From Chloroflexota bacterium (GTDB lineage Bacteria; Chloroflexota; Dormibacteria; Dormibacterales; Dormibacteraceae): 33,331 nt of DNA. Location of the stretch: contig VBII01000044.1 of assembly GCA_005887735.1 (NCBI GenBank), forward strand, positions 1-33,331, given 5' to 3'. Of the stretch, positions 1 through 9,948 are shown piece by piece. Every line of letters begins with the position of its first letter. Positions within the stretch are counted from its first letter, which is position 1. The notes below the pieces were generated by a model. That model made no database searches. It saw nothing but the letters and a program-made list of their open reading frames with translations, and was not told the origin of the DNA. The translations under genes were made by a program, and so were the position numbers.

Positions 1-2141
1 CAGTCGAAACGTCGCGCCCACTCAAACGCGTGCTCGCCTGTCGTCTGGTTTTCCGCCGGCCGGTCGAGCAGCCTGGTGATCCCGGCGGCGTAATCGGCGA
101 CGTCGAGCGGCTCGGCGAGATGCCCGGTCCCGGGCGCCACGGTGACCGTTGGACCGGCCTGGTTCCACGCGACCACCGGCACCCCTTTGGCCATCGCTTC
201 GATCACGCCCATTCCGAAGTCTTCCTCCGGTGCGGGGTAGACGTACACCGCGGCGCCCGCGTAAAGCGACTGCAGCTCGTCCTCGCTGATCGGACCCAGG
301 AAGAGAACTGCGTCGTCCATGCCGAGCTCAGCCACGAGCGAGTTCAAAGAAGCGGTGTGCGAGGTGGCCGGCCCTGGGACCACGAGCTGCGCCCGAGGAT
401 GCTTCTTGCGGACCTCGGCCATCGCCCTGATCGCCAGGTCGAAACGTTTCTGCGGGTAGTGCCGGTTGGTCAGCAGAACGTACGGGCGCCGGATTGGATA
501 TCCGTTGATGGTCAGGCCTCCGCTGAAACGCGACTCAACCGGCAGCGGAAATCCAGAGCTCGCAACGTGGCATCCCGCCGGGCAATCCACCGCGGCCTTG
601 CGGTAGGTCTTGCGGATGATGTCGCCGATGTAGTTGCCGTTGACCAGCAGCAGGTCGGCCTCCTGGATCGAACGCAGATCCGCCCACGCTACGAATCGCG
701 TGGCGCGGAGAACGACCGCGGCCAGCAGGCGATAGTCGGCGTTCGAGATCCATCCAGTCTGGCGGTCGATGTTGCGCGGGTAGACCAGGCGGTTGGGCTG
801 GTTGAGGTACACGACGTAGGGCACATCCATGAGCCGCGCCGCCCACCACGCGATCCAGGCGCTCGGCTGATTGCAGCCGACGATCGCGTCGACTCCACGG
901 AAGCGCCAGGCATAGAGCGGCATCAGCAGCGAGGTGGCGGCCATCTGCACCGCCTCTCGAAAAGGGAACCAGCGCGGCAGCTGGGGCAGGAAAGTCTTGA
1001 CCCGGACCTGGCCGATGAGGTCCGGATAGCAGCGCGACGCGTCGACGGTCGGTGCGTAGCACTCGACTTCATAGCCGCGACGGCGCAGCCCGAGCACCTC
1101 CTCGATCACCAACCGCTCGCCACCGCCGGCGTATGTGAAACCGCAATGGAACACCGCGATGCGCCGAGGCCCTCCCGCCTTAGCGCGCCGCTTTCCGCCG
1201 ACGAGAAGCAGGCCCAGCAGCCCGAGCACCAATGAGTACCCGGCGGTGATCGCGTGATACAGCACGATCGCCCCGGCTGCTACCGATGAGCCCAGGCCCA
1301 GCCCTCCGCCGAGCACCAGCGAACCCGCCACCTCGAGGCTGCCGACGTAACCAGGGCCTGCCGGGACGGCGAACGCGAGGAGCAACGCCGGGTACGCGGC
1401 CATCGCCTTCAGAGTCGGCACGGAAACGCCGAGCGCCCAGAAGAGCAGGCTGAAGTTGAACGCGTCGATCACCAGCGCGATCCCAGTCAGCACCGCCAGG
1501 CGACCGACGACCCGCGGCGTCCACAATCCCCTGGCCACGGCCCGGAAGGCGAACGCCTGGCCGGCCATGCCTGCGGCAACTGATGGCGGCAACCGGCGCC
1601 GAATTCGCGCGGAGCCGGCGATGCGCGGGCCCAGGACCGCCGTCCCGAACACAGCCGCCAGCAACAAGATGGCGAGGGCCGCCGCGCCAAAGAGTCCGCG
1701 CGGGGCGCTCACGACTCCGGTCGACGCGACGACCGAAAGCCCGCCGAGGACGATCGCGACTCCAGCGAGGTCGCACGACTTGTCGATGACGATCGTCGCC
1801 AGGGCCGAACCCGAGGGCACGCGATGCCGGCGCCACAGCCACCAGTACCGCGCGGCGTCCCCGGAGCGGATCGGAAGGACATAGTTGAGAAGGCTGGCGC
1901 CCGCGTTCATCGCGAACGCCCTCACCATGCCCACCGGAGCAAGCGGCCGCAGCAGGATGAGCCAGCGCCGGGCGCGGATCACGCTCGTCGTCAGCGCGAG
2001 CAGGAGCATCACCGCGATCACCCACCAGCTGTGCACCCGGGCGTGGCTGAGGATCTCAGGCAGCGACACCGTGCGCAGCCACAGCCAGAGCAGGGCAAGC
2101 CCGAAGCCGGTCTGCAGGCCGAGCCGGAGCCAGCGGTTCAA
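1..2141 (-). CDS. Flippase-like (UPF0104/COG0392) membrane domain fused in frame to group-1 glycosyltransferase; C-terminus truncated by window edge
   Basis: Hand translation of the minus strand from a TTG at 2141 is open to the window edge: LNRWLRLGLQTGFGLALLWLWLRTVSLPEIL...AFAMNAGASLLNYVLPIRSGDAARYWWLWRR...AVPAGPGYVGSLEVAGSLVLGGG...LLLVGGKRRAKAGGPRRIAVFHCGFTYAGGGERLVIEEVLGLRRRGYEVECYAP...VLLTNRHYPQKRFDLAIRAMAEVRKKHP...YVYPAPEEDFGMGVIEAMAKGVPVVAW. TTG overlaps the upstream stop (TTGA). Absent from the ORF track, probably because it runs off the window. Confidence 0.85.
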   Translation of the reverse strand, partial: MNRWLRLGLQTGFGLALLWLWLRTVSLPEILSHARVHSWWVIAVMLLLALTTSVIRARRWLILLRPLAPVGMVRAFAMNAGASLLNYVLPIRSGDAARYWWLWRRHRVPSGSALATIVIDKSCDLAGVAIVLGGLSVVASTGVVSAPRGLFGAAALAILLLAAVFGTAVLGPRIAGSARIRRRLPPSVAAGMAGQAFAFRAVARGLWTPRVVGRLAVLTGIALVIDAFNFSLLFWALGVSVPTLKAMAAYPALLLAFAVPAGPGYVGSLEVAGSLVLGGGLGLGSSVAAGAIVLYHAITAGYSLVLGLLGLLLVGGKRRAKAGGPRRIAVFHCGFTYAGGGERLVIEEVLGLRRRGYEVECYAPTVDASRCYPDLIGQVRVKTFLPQLPRWFPFREAVQMAATSLLMPLYAWRFRGVDAIVGCNQPSAWIAWWAARLMDVPYVVYLNQPNRLVYPRNIDRQTGWISNADYRLLAAVVLRATRFVAWADLRSIQEADLLLVNGNYIGDIIRKTYRKAAVDCPAGCHVASSGFPLPVESRFSGGLTINGYPIRRPYVLLTNRHYPQKRFDLAIRAMAEVRKKHPRAQLVVPGPATSHTASLNSLVAELGMDDAVLFLGPISEDELQSLYAGAAVYVYPAPEEDFGMGVIEAMAKGVPVVAWNQAGPTVTVAPGTGHLAEPLDVADYAAGITRLLDRPAENQTTGEHAFEWARRFD

Positions 2142-2722
2142 GCGGTCATCTCTTGCGGAGACGACGCCGGCGAATCGAGAATCCAGCGCTGCGCGAAGGC
2201 CCAGAAGGCGAAGAGAAATCCCACGAACAGGATGGTGCCGCCGTAGTCGTGGAAGAGGATGGCCGGTGTCACGCCCACGGTCGCGGCGATTGCTGCCACC
2301 GCAGACACGCGGACCAGGTTGAGCAGCATCGTGCCCGCGAGTCCGATGCAGATGACCTGCACGCGCGACTCCAGAGACTGCGCACGTCGCAGGCCCGAGA
2401 CCAGGCTGACTCCAAACAGGATCAGGCTCTGCCAGCCGATGCAGTTCCAGGAGATGAACAGCGTGTGCATGGTGCCGGAGCCGTCCCACACGACGAGATG
2501 GCTGCCTGAGGCGGCCGCGTGGATGCCGGCCAGGCCGAGCAGGCTCACGACCATCCTCGATTCCGCAGGCACGATTGCCTGCAGCGGATTGTTCGCGCCC
2601 AGCTGCATCGCCCACGCGGTCAGCAGGTCGTCGAAGGTGGTAACGAGCGGGAGCAACATCAGCATCGCGCACGTGAGCGCGATGAGCGTGAGGTTGATGT
2701 TGTCGCGTTCGCTCGTTTTCAT
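2138..2722 (-). CDS. Exosortase/archaeosortase family transpeptidase-like membrane protein
   Basis: 194 aa, multiple TM segments, with ordered Cys (SWNCIGWQSLILF), Arg (LLNLVRVSAVA) and His (ILFHDYGGTILFVGFLFAFWAF) matching the Cys-Arg-His pattern of the family. ATG overlaps the upstream stop (ATGA). Lies next to an ORF with a CTERM-like C-terminus. Confidence 0.85.
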   Translation of the reverse strand: MKTSERDNINLTLIALTCAMLMLLPLVTTFDDLLTAWAMQLGANNPLQAIVPAESRMVVSLLGLAGIHAAASGSHLVVWDGSGTMHTLFISWNCIGWQSLILFGVSLVSGLRRAQSLESRVQVICIGLAGTMLLNLVRVSAVAAIAATVGVTPAILFHDYGGTILFVGFLFAFWAFAQRWILDSPASSPQEMTA

Positions 2723-2826
2723 CGGCGCCTCCGGATCAGCCGCGATGCAAGGATCGGAATGACCGCGGCGAAACCGATGAAACCGAGCAGTGATTCGGGC
2801 ACGATGATGCTCGGCGCCACGATGTT
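2719..2826 (-). other. CTERM-like sorting signal: VPES motif, TM helix, basic tail
   Basis: C-terminus VAPSIIVPESLLGFIGFAAVIPILASRLIRRRR: short Pro-Glu motif, about 20 hydrophobic residues, then Arg cluster, ending directly at the exosortase-like gene. Confidence 0.75.
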
Positions 2827-5317
2827 CGTGTCTCCGGAACCGGCGGGGCCGTCATAGACGAGCGACGGCTTGCCGCCGGTGTTGTGTGTCAGCGTCACCT
2901 GGACGCACAGCGATCCGCCGGCCGTGACCACCATCGGCAGCTGGCTTGCACTGGTGCTGAACGTGAATGGGCTCGTCGTGTTGGCGCCGCTCGATCCGTA
3001 GCTTGCGGACCAGGTCGAACCAACGTTGGGAATCAGCGGCACGAAGGCCGCGCAGCTCGACGTCGCCGAGACTCCCACCGCGATGCTCACCACGTCGTTG
3101 GTGTTGCCGCTGCCTCCGGTCCAGTACATCTTGAAACTCCACACGCCGGCGGCCACCGTCTGCGCCGGCAGGTTGCTGAACGACCAGGTGGTCACTGCGC
3201 CGCCGGACTGGATCTCGCAGGCGGGGCTCTGCGTGCCGGCGGTCTGGTCGAGCGTGCTGGCCGTGCACGCCGGAGCCGTCCCCGTCCCATGCAGGTAGAG
3301 CGGGTTGCCCGCGGCTCTGACCACAGGCGCTCGACCGGACGCGATGGCAAGACCGCTGAACAACAGCGCCAGCACGCCGACCACCACCCATCCGAGCCAG
3401 CGTCGATGGGGCCGCGACCGGCGCACCGGGGACGCCGCCAACGGCGCGGCCGGCGGCCTCCATCGCACGTCTGCCTGGCCGCGTCCGCGCAGCCAGCGGC
3501 CGAGGAGGTGGAGCCGCCGCAGGTGGTGGACCTCGTCGGTGACGCGTCCGGTCTTCGGCGTGCGAAACCACGGCCCTTCGTCTTTGCCGATCAGGCCTTT
3601 GAAGGCGGCCCACCCCTGGAAGGGCACGAGGGCAAACGACAAGACCAGCGCCCCGAACACGCCTTGCACGTCTCGTGCCGGCGCCTCTTCGAGGATCAAC
3701 CCACCCAGGTTCATCAGTGGAAGCGCGAAGACGTTGGAGAAGAGGAGCGACCATCCGAGAAGCGCCGTCCATCCAGGCACGTGCGTGCGGAACACGACCT
3801 CGGAGACGAGCCAGCACACAGAGCCGAGCACGAACAAACCCGCCTGCAGGTAGTAGGTCGAGTCGTACAGGAACTCGAGCTTCTCGATCGGGGTGACCAG
3901 AGGCGAGCGCAGGATCGGCAGGAACCACTTGCGGACGTTGTGCGTATGCCCCTCCGCCCATCGCATGCGCTGGCGCGCCAGGCGCGCGAAGGTGCTGACC
4001 CCAGCCGACATTGCGCAGTACGTCGGCGCGGATCATGTAGGCCGTGCCCGCGATCATCTTCAGCGACCCGACCGCGTCCTGGAATGGACGCTCGATCATG
4101 TAGCTGCCTGCGTACTCCGCGCGCACCGCTTCGGTGAGCCAGCTTTCGGATTTGTTCAGGACGTGCCACTGGTAGCTCTGCACCGCGGCGACCTCGGGCC
4201 GGCGCTTGACCCGTCCGGGATCTGAGGGCGGCTCCGTCCGACCGAACGCCGCCTCGAAGCGCAGGCTGGACGTGCCGTCGCTGACGCGATAGAAGAGCGG
4301 CAGCAGGCGCTCGATCGAGTCGGGAAATGGGACCGAGTCGGCGTCGAAGACGACGACATACTCGGTGCGGGGGTCCATGACCTTCAGCGCTTCGCGCAGC
4401 GCGCCACCCTTGTATCCCGAGCGGCTTGTCCGATGCAGGATCTTGAAACGCGGCCGCCCGACCCACTGCTGCAGGATCTGCACCGATTCGTCGGTCGAAT
4501 CGTCGACGACGACGACCTCGTACTCCGGATACTCCAGCTGCGACAGGGCGTTCAGCAAGCGTTCGATGACGCGCTTCTCGTTGTAGGCCGCGACATGCAC
4601 CGAGACGAACGGGTGGTAGCCGAGGTCGACGTGATAGCCGTTGCCGTTTCCGTTGATGCGGCTCAGCCCGTTGCCGTTCGTCTTCGAGCCATTCCCGTTC
4701 CCATTCCGGGCGCCCCCGACCAGCGTGGTCAGCAGGACCATCACGGTGCTGAGGTAGTACTTGATCGCGTATGCGAAGAAGATCGCGCCGAGAAAGAGCC
4801 CGGTGAAGGCAAAGCCGTATGCGGCCCAGTCGGCTCCGCTGCGGATCTTCGATTGCTGGACGAGGTCGATGAAGCCGTGGACGATGGCGACGATCGGGAT
4901 GAAGCCCACGACGAAGGCTGCGATGAGGACGCCGTTCAGGAGGATGCTCCAGGCGAGGTGGCCGCGCTCCGGACGCGGCCCCAATAGCCTGCCGGGATCT
5001 TCTCCTTGCAAGCGCCGGTGTCCGCCCGGGGTCGTCAGGGTGGGACGGAGGCGCCCGTTCCGGACCGCGCGGTTGATTGTCGGCTGGCTGACCCCGAGCA
5101 ACCTGGCGGCTTCCCCGGTGGAGACGAGTCGCGCGCCGTCAGGCTCGTCCTGGAGGCCAGCCGCAAAAGCCTCGACGTCCCGGTCGCTGAAGCGGCGATG
5201 CCCGCCTGGCGTGACCAGCGCGGGGTGGAGCAGTCCTCTCGCGACCGCGCGCAAAACAGTCGCCTGGCTCACGCCGAGGCGAGCTGCCACATCCTTCGAA
5301 CTGATCAATCTGTGCAA
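2719..5317 (-). pseudogene. Tandem HTH + TM + GT2 glycosyltransferase + extracytoplasmic CTERM-like domain; disrupted by internal deletion/frameshift near 3991-4006 (or assembly error)
   Basis: The frame starting at TTG 5317 encodes two HTH units (SSKDVAARLGVSQATVLRAVARG..TPGGHRRFSDRDVEAF; STGEAARLLGVSQPTINRAVRNG..TPGGHRRL), TM segments, and GT2 motifs (VAAYNEKRVIERLL, VVVDDSTD, VFDADSVP, AGTAYMIRADVLRNVGWG). The other frame (2719..4011) resumes GT2 at VSTFARLARQRMRWAEGHTHNVRK, then TM helices and the CTERM domain. The segment expected between them, containing TED, is absent. Confidence 0.75.
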
Positions 5318-5595
5318 GACGTTTGCTGGAGCAACGCAGCTTAAGCATTTGGGAGTCCCCTTTCATCATTTAAGGGCTTTGGATTCCAAGAGTGCCGCAG
5401 GCATTTCGTCGTTGAAAATGTGCAAAGATCGACCGGCCCGTTCTTGGATTTCGTGCCAAGATTTTCACTGCGCAACCGTGCGTGCGGACCTTCAGAAAGG
5501 GAATCCACGACCTCATTCTTAGTTAGAACCTCACCCCCCGCAGCCAAGCTCGGAGCCGGTGTCGAGAAATCGCCCGGCCCGAGCCTTTTTTTAGG

Positions 5596-5640
5596 CTCCT
5601 CCCCATTCATGGGGAGGTGGCGCGAAGCGCCGGAGGGGCT
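5596..5640. repeat. Intergenic palindromic repeat (two stacked hairpins), copy 1
   Basis: cctccccattcatggggagg (7-bp arms 5598-5604/5611-5617) followed by ggcgc-gaa-gcgcc (5619-5631) and ggagggg. Confidence 0.7.
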
Positions 5641-5650
5641 GGAACAAACC

Positions 5651-6397
5651 CTATTTGAGCCCCAACGCCCACTCGTGAAGCGCCTCCCTCCACGGCCTGA
5701 GCGCCCGGTACCGAGTCGTCGCCAGGCAGCCGTTGAGCGGGCGTTGCGCGGCGGACGGATAGGCCCCACTCCGTACGGACTCGACGGGTTCCGAGAGGCC
5801 GAGCTCCTCCAGCGCAGCGCGTGCAAAGTCGTCCCAGCCGGCGCAACCCTCGGCGACCACATGGACGATGCCGGCCGTGCCGCCCTCGACGAGCTCCACC
5901 GCCGCCGCGGCGAGGTCTTTGGCGTAGGTCGGGTTGACACGCTGGTCGGACACGACCCGCAGCTTCTCGCCCGACCGGGCCCGGTCGACAATGCGCTGAG
6001 GAAAGCTTCGCGGGCCGCCGAAGACCGCCGCGGTCCTGATCAGCAGCACCTGGGCACCGGTCTCGAGCACCCTCCGCTCGCCCTCGAGCTTAGAGCGGCC
6101 GTAGACGGAAATTGGCGATGCCTCGTCGGCTTCGATATACGGCTCGTGGTGCGCTCCGTCGAAAACAAAGTTGGTGGAAAAGTGGACCAGCGCCGCACCG
6201 TGACGCCGGCAGGCGGCCGCCACGATGCCTGGACCTTCCCCGTTGACTGCGCGCGCAAGCGTCGGCTCTTTCTCGGCGAGATCCACCGCGTTGTACGCGG
6301 CGCAGTTGTAGACGAGGTCCGGTTTTTGATCCGCGATCAGCAGCTCGACGAGCTCTGAGCCCAGCTGCCCCCCGGCGCCGAGAACGAGTGCTCTCAG
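5651..6397 (-). CDS. rfbD: dTDP-4-dehydrorhamnose reductase-like SDR, apparently shortened near the N-terminus
   Basis: RALVLGAGGQLGSELVELLIADQKPDLVYNCAAYNAVDLAEKEP...VHFSTNFVFDG...SVYGRSKLEGERRV...LIRTAAVFG. Minus strand in frame of ORF 5651..6979; likely begins near a CTG at 6397 overlapping the upstream stop. Confidence 0.75.
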   Translation of the reverse strand: MRALVLGAGGQLGSELVELLIADQKPDLVYNCAAYNAVDLAEKEPTLARAVNGEGPGIVAAACRRHGAALVHFSTNFVFDGAHHEPYIEADEASPISVYGRSKLEGERRVLETGAQVLLIRTAAVFGGPRSFPQRIVDRARSGEKLRVVSDQRVNPTYAKDLAAAAVELVEGGTAGIVHVVAEGCAGWDDFARAALEELGLSEPVESVRSGAYPSAAQRPLNGCLATTRYRALRPWREALHEWALGLK

Positions 6398-9300
6398 AGC
6401 GAAGCTTGATCGGCCTGTGGAGCGAGGCCGGATTGTGTCGTGAGGAGAGCTGTGATCTCGATTGCCTCGACCGGACGGCCAATGAGGAATCCCTGCGCGG
6501 CGTCGCATCCGGCCTCGACCAACACCGCCTCCGCCATCCGGTCCTGCAGGCCTTCCGCGACGACACGCAGGCCGAGGTTGTGGCCTAGGCCGACCGCCGA
6601 TCGCACGATCGCGCCCGAGTCGGGGTCGGTGGCCAACGCGGAGACGAAGGAGCGATCGATCTTGATCTCGTTGACGGGCAGCCGCATCAGATAAAGGAGC
6701 GAGGAGTACCCGGTGCCGAAGTCGTCGAGCGCGAGGCGCACGCCGATCTCGTGCAGCCGGTGCAGGGCCTTCGCAGCCGCGGCCGCCATCGCGACTCCCT
6801 CGGTGATCTCCAGCGTCAGGCGGTTCGGCTCGACTTTGAAGTTGCCGAGAGCGCGAGCGACCATCTCCTCGAGCGAGTGATCCTCGATGTTGCGCGGCGA
6901 TACATTCAGGGACACCGATACATCGAGCCCATCGTTCAGCCACTTGCACAGCTGCTCCAGCGCCGAGTCGATGACCCACGCCGTGAGCGGATGGATGATT
7001 CCTGTTTCCTCGGCCATCGGGATGAAGCGGTCCGGCGGCATCAAGCCTTCGCGCGGATGGTTCCAGCGGACGAGCGCTTCCACGGTGTGCACGGCGCCCG
7101 TCGCGAGCGTGACCTGCGGCTGATAGTGGAGAACCAGCTCGCCCTGCGGAATGGATCGCCGCAGCTCGCCCGCGAGCCCGGAACGGCGCAGCGTCTGGGC
7201 CTCCTGCTCCGGCTGGTACATCGCGTAACCGCCACCTGAACGTTTGGCGACGTACATCGCCACGTCCGCTCGCCGCAGCAGAGTTCCTGGATCGTCGCCG
7301 TGCACCGGGTACATCGCAATCCCGATCGACGCGCCGGTCTCAACCATCTGGTCGGCGATCGCGAACGGACCTTCCAGCGAGGCGAGGATCTTGCGCGCGG
7401 AGGCGACGACGTCTTCGGGATGCTTGGCGTCGGTCGTGAGCACAGCGAACTCGTCCCCGCCGAGCCTGGCGATGGTGTCGGTCGCACGCAGCACGCCGCG
7501 CAGGCGAGCCGTGACTTCCTGGAGCAGGCTGTCGCCGCGGTCATGTCCGAGCGCGTCGTTGATGTCTTTGAACCGGTCGAGGTCGAGCAACAGCACGCCG
7601 AACATCTTCTGGTTGCGCCGCGCCGCAAGAAGCGCCTGGCGCAGCCGGTCACCGAACAGGCTTCGGTTGGGCAACCCCGTCAGCGCGTCGTGAAGCGCCT
7701 GGTACTCGAGCGCGTCCGTGTGCGCCTTGCGTTCCGAGATGTCGCGCAACGTGGCGATGAACAGGTGACGCAAGCCCACCTGCATGGAGCTGACGACGAA
7801 CTCGAGGGGAAACAGGCTGCCGTTCTTTCGCTTGCCCATCGTCTCGTGGGCGCCGCTCACCGGGATGTCGAGGTTCAGCCGCCGCTGGAGGTAGTTGTCA
7901 AACGCGGCGCGATGAGTGGTCGCGATGAGGACGTCGGATTGCTGGTTGATCAATTCCTCTTCCGAATAGCCGAACAGCTTCGTGACGGCGGGGTTGGCCG
8001 ACTCGATGATCCCGGCCGGGTCGATGGTGGCAAGGCCGTCGGAAACGTTGTCGAGGACCGAGCGCATGCGCTTCTCGCTGTCCTGCAGAGCGACTTCAGC
8101 GCGCTTGCGCTCGACAAACTCTCCGATCTGGGAGCCGACGTCGTTCATGACAGCGATGAGCCCGTCGTCGAGACCTCGCGCTGCCCAGGTGTGCAGCGAG
8201 ATCATGCCGACCACGCGACGGCCGCTGCGGACGGGAAAACCGACGATCCCATGAAGTCCGACCGCAAGCGCCGCGCCAGACCGGACGGATGTGTCGCCCG
8301 CCAGGTCCGGCATCGCGACTGGCGCGCCGGCTTCCCAAACGCGGCCGGCCAAACCCTCGCCGCGCCGATAGGCCACCTGCGATGCGGTTGCTTCATACGC
8401 GGTGGTGTCACGGCCAGGCCGCTTCCAGGAGCCGACGAAATGCATTGCCTCGCGGTTGAAGTCGACCTCCCAGTACTCCGCAAGCTCCCAATCGAGGGTC
8501 CGGCACAGGCCTTCGAGGACCCCGGGCGCGGCCTTGTCCCAGCCCGGAGACGTGACGAGCGCCTGCGTGACGGCGAACCGCGCCGCCTGGAGGACCTCCG
8601 CGCGCTTGCGATCGCGGATGTCGACCGCGACCGTCTGGAAATACATCGGCTTGCCGGCCGTGCTTCGGACCAGGCGCATCGTGAGGTCGACCCACACGTG
8701 CTCGCCGTTCTTGCGCGTGTAGCGCTTCTCGATGCGGCGACCTTCCTCGTCGCCCGCGAGCATCGCGTGCATCGCGTCCTGCAGCGCCGCGACGTCGTCG
8801 GGATGGGTGATATCCAGAAGTGAGAGCGTGCGAAGCTCAGCCTCGCTGTAGCCGACGAGCTCACAGAAGGCAGGGTTCACCGTAGTGATGTGGCCGTCGA
8901 GGCTCGTGAAGGCCATGCCTGCCTGCGCCTGCTCGAAGAGGATCCGGAAGCGGGTCTCGGTGTCGCGCTCGCCCGCTTCGGCGCGCCGTCGCTCACTGAT
9001 GTCGCTGACGAGGGTCAGCAGCTGGTTGCGCTTGGTTGTCACGCGATGGATGGCGACCTCGACCTCGACCCGTCCCCCAGATTTGGTGATGATGCCCGAG
9101 GTGTATCTCGCAGGTGCATCGCCGCCCGCCAGCCGTTTCGTGAGGTTGGTGGAAAGCCGTTCACGATCCTCAGGGGGCGCCAGGTCGATCATCGTCGGCA
9201 TCGCAGCCAATTGCTCGCGCGTGTAACCGGTGAGGTTCACATAGGCGTCGTTGCCGGCGACGAACCTGCCGTTCTCTGTGATCACCAGGCCTTCGCCCAG

Positions 9301-9948
9301 GTCACTGAGCGTCGCGAGCAGCGAACTCTGCCGCTCGACCTGCAGGCCGAGGTCGCGTTCGACCGCGCGGCTGGTCAGCATCGCAAGGATGCCGAGGCCG
9401 AGCAACACCAGAGTCCAGATCAGGACGGTGCTCAGCGAGACCATGAGCTGGCTGACGGCGTAGACCCACAGCACACCCAGGCCGAGGATGGCGATGGCGA
9501 AGACGTAGCCGAACTGGCGTGTGTGCAGGCCCACTTCGAAGTGGAGAAACACCGTGGCAAAGCTCACCGCCGCCAGGGGAGGCAGGTCGTCGCCCAGCCA
9601 TCGCCCGGCCGTCCCCATCACGAGGACGGTGAGGACGGTCGCGATCGCCATCACGGGCAGCTGGATGAGCAGGCTCGAGCCGCGTGGCGAGAGCTTTGCC
9701 CACACCGCGACGACGGCAAAGACCACGCCTATGCCGATCAGGATCGCCTCTTCGCGCAGAACGGCAGCCGGCGGACGGGCTTCCCAGATCCGGTAGGCGA
9801 CGGCGCCGATGATCGCCGCGACGGCGGCTCCGTTGACCAGGGGCAAGGTCCACGGCCGGGTCGGCCGCGGAAGCCCGATCGCGGCCCACGCCGCCCCGAA
9901 CAGAGGATCGGCGGCGGGCGCCGGGGACATGCTCAGCTCTCTAGCCAA
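6394..9948 (-). CDS. Membrane PAS/GAF-GGDEF-EAL signalling protein (diguanylate cyclase/phosphodiesterase)
   Basis: 1184 aa. N-terminal TM segments, repeated PAS-like regions, a GAF-like region, ARLGGDEFAVL, VEALVRWNHP and DDFGTGYSSL motifs. Confidence 0.95.
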   Translation of the reverse strand: MARELSMSPAPAADPLFGAAWAAIGLPRPTRPWTLPLVNGAAVAAIIGAVAYRIWEARPPAAVLREEAILIGIGVVFAVVAVWAKLSPRGSSLLIQLPVMAIATVLTVLVMGTAGRWLGDDLPPLAAVSFATVFLHFEVGLHTRQFGYVFAIAILGLGVLWVYAVSQLMVSLSTVLIWTLVLLGLGILAMLTSRAVERDLGLQVERQSSLLATLSDLGEGLVITENGRFVAGNDAYVNLTGYTREQLAAMPTMIDLAPPEDRERLSTNLTKRLAGGDAPARYTSGIITKSGGRVEVEVAIHRVTTKRNQLLTLVSDISERRRAEAGERDTETRFRILFEQAQAGMAFTSLDGHITTVNPAFCELVGYSEAELRTLSLLDITHPDDVAALQDAMHAMLAGDEEGRRIEKRYTRKNGEHVWVDLTMRLVRSTAGKPMYFQTVAVDIRDRKRAEVLQAARFAVTQALVTSPGWDKAAPGVLEGLCRTLDWELAEYWEVDFNREAMHFVGSWKRPGRDTTAYEATASQVAYRRGEGLAGRVWEAGAPVAMPDLAGDTSVRSGAALAVGLHGIVGFPVRSGRRVVGMISLHTWAARGLDDGLIAVMNDVGSQIGEFVERKRAEVALQDSEKRMRSVLDNVSDGLATIDPAGIIESANPAVTKLFGYSEEELINQQSDVLIATTHRAAFDNYLQRRLNLDIPVSGAHETMGKRKNGSLFPLEFVVSSMQVGLRHLFIATLRDISERKAHTDALEYQALHDALTGLPNRSLFGDRLRQALLAARRNQKMFGVLLLDLDRFKDINDALGHDRGDSLLQEVTARLRGVLRATDTIARLGGDEFAVLTTDAKHPEDVVASARKILASLEGPFAIADQMVETGASIGIAMYPVHGDDPGTLLRRADVAMYVAKRSGGGYAMYQPEQEAQTLRRSGLAGELRRSIPQGELVLHYQPQVTLATGAVHTVEALVRWNHPREGLMPPDRFIPMAEETGIIHPLTAWVIDSALEQLCKWLNDGLDVSVSLNVSPRNIEDHSLEEMVARALGNFKVEPNRLTLEITEGVAMAAAAAKALHRLHEIGVRLALDDFGTGYSSLLYLMRLPVNEIKIDRSFVSALATDPDSGAIVRSAVGLGHNLGLRVVAEGLQDRMAEAVLVEAGCDAAQGFLIGRPVEAIEITALLTTQSGLAPQADQASL

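Follow-up and report, generated by a model that had tools for sequence, protein, structure and literature searches.

It has long been noticed that exosortases occur next to exopolysaccharide genes, though the reason for the association has not been clear. The system described here is encoded on the minus strand of a 33,331-nucleotide stretch of DNA from a Chloroflexota bacterium (contig VBII01000044.1, positions 1 to 33,331; hereafter the window), and pairs a small exosortase-family protein with a processive family 2 glycosyltransferase (GT2) that, in its intact form, ends in a CTERM-type sorting tail. A link to exopolysaccharide was proposed for EpsH (PMC1569441), and the PEP-CTERM/EpsH (XrtA) systems resemble the present one in their C-terminal motif followed by a transmembrane (TM) helix and a basic tail, their membrane enzyme with Cys/Arg/His residues, and their exopolysaccharide genes (PMC1569441); in a given genome, however, they act on several to many free proteins, whereas here each enzyme appears to have one substrate, fused to a synthase. 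For the substrates of the archaeosortase ArtA lipid anchoring is known, which provides a precedent for cleavage coupled to such anchoring (PMC7157517). The nearest known system is XrtG/Firmicu-CTERM (TIGR03110, with glycosyltransferase TIGR03111), for which one cluster in L. plantarum is described as encoding two glycosyltransferases together with a Firmicu-CTERM protein and an exosortase (PMC12854382). Both systems have a small dedicated exosortase and one CTERM protein and include a GT2, but in XrtG clusters the CTERM protein and the glycosyltransferases are distinct proteins, whereas here the putative substrate is fused to the GT2. As judged from the sequences, the ingredients are those of XrtG, and the difference is that substrate and synthase form one polypeptide, served by an exosortase other than XrtG. 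We favor, with moderate confidence, the view that the exosortase is dedicated to one substrate, the C-terminal extension of a processive GT2, an exopolysaccharide synthase. No description of a synthase-substrate fusion was found in the literature searched, which did not cover the main exosortase review, and an earlier description is possible; the same search found no paper tying exosortases to the stem Dormibacter-.

A sequence-only reading of this locus had taken the open reading frame (ORF) running from 4011 to 2719 (2719..4011, minus strand) for a separate small sorted protein. The VPES-TM-RRRR terminus that it reported is indeed present (...APSIIVPESLLGFIGFAAVIPILASRLIRRRR), the tail occupying 2722..2829 (-), with VPES at 2791-2802, the hydrophobic helix at 2734-2790 and RRRR at 2722-2733; this is the general CTERM pattern of a short motif, a TM helix and a basic cluster at the extreme C-terminus, linked to an exosortase. 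The supposed small protein itself, however, reads as the C-terminal module of a polysaccharide synthase, with no independent gene, because it opens with ~150 residues that belong to the end of a GT2 domain (from QRMRW) and that lie in a single frame with the GT2 in relatives. The ORF corresponds to residues 369-797 of the intact protein of the related locus L016, and the N-terminal half, with two TM helices and the DD and D motifs (PF13641/PF00535), lies at 3999..5008 (-). In relatives, the GT2, the membrane helices, the ectodomain and the [VI]PE tail make up one unbroken reading frame of ~770-860 amino acids, and GT2 and tail share a frame in every relative long enough to judge. The GT2 is of the processive type, with PF13641 and PgaC-, BcsA- and NodC-like matches, and its motifs D, D, TED and Q/RxxRW (QRMRW), flanked by TM helices, are invariant in alignments A2 and A4.

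Comparison with L005 and L016 located the breaks in the window. It is without 98 nucleotides (nt) at ~3999, where the stretch with the TED motif is lost and the GT2 frame broken; without 53 nt at ~5009, where the upstream helix-turn-helix (HTH) gene becomes joined to the GT2; and without ~66 nt at ~6341, inside rmlD. Further short losses relative to L005 are 47 nt at ~5614 and 41 nt at ~10073, a pattern that points to the assembly of this MAG (metagenome-assembled genome). Because the three gaps of 98, 53 and 66 nt fall within 2.4 kb, loss during assembly is suspected, and the gaps are likely, though not proven, to be assembly artefacts, with decay of the locus as the alternative; L009 also appears to lack a similar stretch, but in-frame. 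A natural split of the GT2 in this lineage, leaving the short ORF as a true separate gene, would agree with the frames as assembled, which are separate, but we hold it to be highly improbable: the start of the ORF lies inside the GT2 catalytic region and is conserved in no relative, two of the three deletions disrupt frames, and the close relative L005 is intact. The HTH gene (5012..5317, -) encodes tandem HTH_17/MerR/BldC-like DNA-binding domains (PF12728), and in L003-L012, L014 and L016 it is a separate ORF with overlapping stop and start; the HTH-GT2 fusion of the window was rejected as a natural regulator-synthase, being a product of the 53-nt deletion. A fusion that does seem natural is found in L114 (3467-6094, +), a paralogous locus in genome G024, in which the HTH domains are in frame with the GT2, EVDERS replaces VPES in the tail and the adjoining exosortase is divergent.

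The exosortase gene (2138..2722, -) encodes a membrane protein of 194 amino acids, which in profile searches scored 34.3 bits against TIGR04178 (cut-off 23), in agreement with the exosortase-like protein recognized earlier by its Cys/Arg/His pattern. The scores against named subfamilies were 35.7 bits for ArtC (cut-off 100), 32.5 for thaumarchaeosortase (250), 30.3 for XrtX (170), 22.3 for CrtC (225), 19.7 for XrtG (TIGR03110; 102.75) and 13.4 for XrtR (150). Since it scores under every named subfamily cut-off, including those of ArtC and thaumarchaeosortase, which are among its best subfamily matches yet remain far out of reach, the protein is best described as a predicted exosortase-family member outside every named subfamily. 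The predicted catalytic residues Cys94, Arg138 (in NxxR) and His158 (in HD) are invariant among 11 diverse members, drawn from two classes and one archaeal contig, and the six hydrophobic stretches in the hydropathy profile fit a polytopic membrane protein. The gene overlaps both of its neighbors in the manner first reported: the stop of the tail-bearing ORF shares ATGA with the exosortase ATG (2722), and the exosortase stop overlaps the TTG start (2141) of the following gene as TTGA. In relatives the exosortase is likewise the gene that follows the tail, usually with overlapping codons.

The pairing of enzyme and tail was then followed across genomes. An adjacent ORF ending in [VI]PE, a helix and a basic cluster was present at 31 of 31 distinct exosortase loci, a count that is descriptive only, because some of these tails built the tail hidden Markov model (HMM; A1); the GT2 is in the same frame as the tail at all 27 loci with enough sequence, the other four being cut at 170 residues or fewer. 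The tail HMM matched in the genome of the window at E=3e-18. On 17 whole genomes it gave 20 matches at E<=0.0023, every one directly beside an exosortase, and its matches at E>=0.017 were all partial; G016, G017 and G024 have two tail-exosortase pairs each, still one-to-one. The lack of further tails genome-wide is an independent result for one-to-one pairing. A wider substrate cohort was not found with this HMM in the 17 genomes, although strongly divergent tails could escape it (the EVDERS tail of L114 scored E=0.002), and a PEP-CTERM cohort was not found in 19 genomes, where TIGR02595 matched at noise level only. No NCBIfam CTERM model matched the tail protein of the window, which is likewise not a PEP-CTERM protein by TIGR02595. 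Absence was also shared: 22 of the 23 genomes without a detected exosortase are also without this GT2, the remaining one (G031) being unscorable with a contig edge inside its GT2, and in G019 an exosortase stub lies between rmlD and the gene for a flippase-like fusion protein (described below), the GT2 being gone. The co-occurrence that had been suggested as a check was thus borne out, and neither of the outcomes named in advance as grounds for abandoning the idea was seen, as the exosortase matched its family HMM and neighbor homologues without the tail did not occur among relatives with an intact C-terminus. In the dedicated one-substrate system that had been envisaged, the one-to-one pairing with a single tail-bearing protein stands, and the stand-alone nature of the substrate does not. 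The sequences best support an exosortase that is reserved for the tail at the C-terminus of this synthase.

Within the tail, for which a helix is predicted, P11, E12, G19 and P25 are invariant over 20 relatives. The motif is [VI]PE, the next residue being S, G, A, H, L, Y or K, and two outlier tails have VPD and VDE; VPES as a motif defining a sorting subclass was therefore ruled out, the Ser in fourth place not being conserved.

Other exosortases and other copies were met in the same genomes. Two additional exosortases of other kinds are present in G024 and G025, and at L111 in G025 (5698-6444 (-) and 3926-5860 (-)) one of another type is near a 248-amino acid protein with a VPEAP tail ending VPEAPIAALLPLTGFALLGLVFFVVARRRGNASELSE; these two look like a conventional pair with a stand-alone substrate. 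The genome of the window (2.7 Mb, 343 contigs, 78% complete, the window being its contig C233) holds a second GT2 of the family at L109 (G000:C279, 3722-4567), cut by the contig end, and may have a second such system.

Upstream of the tail, a signal-peptide-like TM segment (3316..3408, -), delimited by alignment A2, hydropathy and reading of the sequence, ends at a conserved V-x-A|A, which is APVVRAAG in the window; in A2, A594, P595, A599 and A600 are invariant and V597 nearly so. An AP-V-x-A|A site after a basic-hydrophobic segment would fit the -3/-1 rule of signal peptidase I. Such a conserved site favors a polyprotein, in which the fusion would serve co-expression, signal peptidase I would free the ectodomain with its tail, and the exosortase would sort the free CTERM protein, leaving the GT2 unprocessed by the exosortase. 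The same is suggested by L151, where a stand-alone protein encoded after the GT2 fusion has a like leader, ectodomain and tail, by L120, which has a similar leader and ectodomain and a C-terminus cut by the contig end, and by the XrtG system, which keeps the CTERM protein and the glycosyltransferases as separate genes (PMC12854382); a separate substrate as in XrtG is absent here, and in L151 it is present in addition to the fusion. Against a polyprotein, all relatives with an intact C-terminus keep GT2 and tail fused despite wide divergence, a sign that the connection is of importance. We give the polyprotein somewhat less than an even chance; it is to be noted that it overlaps the explanation we favor, the exosortase acting on the tail in both, so that confidence in the one does not exclude the other.

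The extracellular domain between this segment and the tail (2830..3315, -; alignment A3) is a predicted beta sandwich, modeled with confidence by AlphaFold2 for L016 (mean predicted local distance difference test score, pLDDT, 85.4). The closest fold in the PDB was that of cocaine-esterase-family enzymes (TM score 0.54, 13% identity), a likeness of the model that we take as one of fold only and as saying nothing of function; in the profile search the domain had no Pfam match. It varies more between lineages than the GT2 and is larger in genus g10. A jelly-roll ectodomain on a BcsA/PgaC-like synthase could also guide the nascent polymer in cis, as BcsB does for BcsA, the tail then being a plain anchor left uncut by the exosortase homologue, and a cellulose synthase complex chain (5eiy_B) does appear low in the fold list (E=0.026). 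This BcsB-type match is not significant, however, and a mere anchor has no need of an invariant [VI]PE motif, nor does it explain why exosortase and tail are strictly paired and are absent together; we consider a guide of this kind unlikely. Processive GT2 motifs and membrane layout are common to the present synthase and to PgaC/IcaA and BcsA, but the GT2 scores 85.7 bits against a cut-off of 422.3 for the PgaC/IcaA poly-N-acetylglucosamine synthase (TIGR03937) and 56 against 520 for the XrtP-associated glycosyltransferase (NF053846), and the extra ectodomain and sorting tail are found only in the present family and in none of these. The intact GT2 likewise scores 25 against the cut-off of 364 for TIGR03111 of the XrtG set, whose exosortase also differs from the present one by score.

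The closest relatives of the window are soil genomes under the names Candidatus Dormiibacterota or Chloroflexi. A GT2-domain HMM run over 400 genomes of the phylum found the GT2 in 20, belonging to the class of the window and, for G325, G204 and G169, to another class, of which more members were added later. In that other class the protein measures 1184 to ~1820 amino acids and begins with a response-regulator (REC) domain, and two of the three proteins tested also have an MshEN domain. MshEN is a known cyclic-di-GMP-binding module. Response-regulator and MshEN domains precede the GT2, ectodomain and tail in L156 (9695-10594, -) and L151 (1392-6068, +), in single polypeptides of ~1560 amino acids, and L152 has the response-regulator domain without MshEN at its N-terminus. 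The tails of this class read IVPEG, IVPEK or TVPDA; the exosortase adjoins the GT2 protein in L152 and L156, and the family 4 glycosyltransferase (GT4) is a separate gene, a relative of which follows the exosortase in L119. The stand-alone protein of L151 has leader helices, an AAA|V site and a VPEG tail, and because it bears the same tail as the fusion, the tail is seen as a portable signal. Outside the phylum, the contig L020 of an archaeal MAG, Candidatus Terraquivivens tikiterensis, carries an archaeosortase 35% identical to the exosortase, after it a GT2 51% identical in the catalytic region, and, past one apparent frame break, an ectodomain with a VIPE tail ending VIPENILAFLPFALSLLAIRLRREGRRK. 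The three genes, archaeosortase, GT2 and ectodomain-tail, are thus in reversed order, and cross-domain transfer and misbinning are both possible.

In the window, the order of transcription is a PAS-GAF-GGDEF-EAL protein, an RmlD-like reductase, the tandem HTH_17 protein, the GT2 protein, the exosortase and an LPG_synthase_TM-GT4 fusion. The last of these (3..2141, -; PF03706 and PF00534 in one ORF) is the flippase/glycosyltransferase fusion noticed earlier; it scored 44.6 bits against TIGR00374 (cut-off 43.2), runs off the end of the window and has 742 amino acids in relatives where it is complete. The overlapping operon with glycan enzymes proposed for this locus is therefore real in the window, though this partner is not obligatory. 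The RmlD-like dTDP-sugar reductase (5651..6400, -; PF04321, E=6e-69) is a syntenic upstream gene, with its L016 counterpart at 4148-4966. The cyclic-di-GMP protein (6394..9948, -; PF00990 and PF00563) lies immediately before rmlD and the synthase operon in the direction of transcription, and its place is conserved in L016 (591-4151) and L113, which hints at control by cyclic di-GMP. Because of this cyclic-di-GMP context, with a GGDEF-EAL neighbor here and MshEN in relatives, a regulated exopolysaccharide synthase is supported.

In the mechanism that we favor, the GT2 would make and extrude a polymer, and the last helix before the ectodomain would act as an internal signal peptide, at whose V-x-A|A signal peptidase may cut. 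The exosortase, through Cys94, Arg138 and His158, would cut at the [VI]PE tail and hand the new C-terminus of the ectodomain to a lipid or glycan acceptor, as its family suggests, so that the jelly-roll protein would be held on the outer face at the point where the polymer leaves. The LPG_synthase_TM-GT4 protein, where present, may make or flip the lipid-linked glycan acceptor, and cyclic di-GMP or promoter control, through the GGDEF-EAL and HTH neighbors here and REC/MshEN in relatives, may switch the system on. Several points weigh against this view. The GT2 of the window is broken by deletions, and as assembled the protein would be inactive; many of the 31 locus tails also served to build the tail HMM; and the LPG_synthase_TM-GT4 gene does not adjoin the exosortase in L017 or L018, being a common but not universal partner. 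The AlphaFold2 model of the full-length GT2 protein had a mean pLDDT of 51 and was not used, we infer the cleavage and the acceptor by analogy, and a polytopic substrate is, to our knowledge, unusual for exosortases. The archaeal case is one 4.9-kb MAG contig with a frame break and possible misbinning.

Because a private sortase-like enzyme adjoins the synthase in every relative examined, these results suggest that it is the exterior portion of the sugar-making machine itself that the cell cuts and anchors anew. A sorting tail inside a sugar-polymer synthase, paired one-to-one with its enzyme, would be a compact system of one enzyme and one substrate, which allows direct tests of cleavage, of the acceptor and of the link to polysaccharide export. 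It also indicates that substrate searches confined to small secreted proteins can miss polytopic exosortase substrates. A further step, which we regard as rather improbable, is that the exosortase joins the synthase ectodomain to the polymer or glycolipid made by the same operon; if true, the synthase in Chloroflexota and at least one archaeon would produce, in a single coupled step, a polysaccharide that is capped with protein or anchored to the cell.

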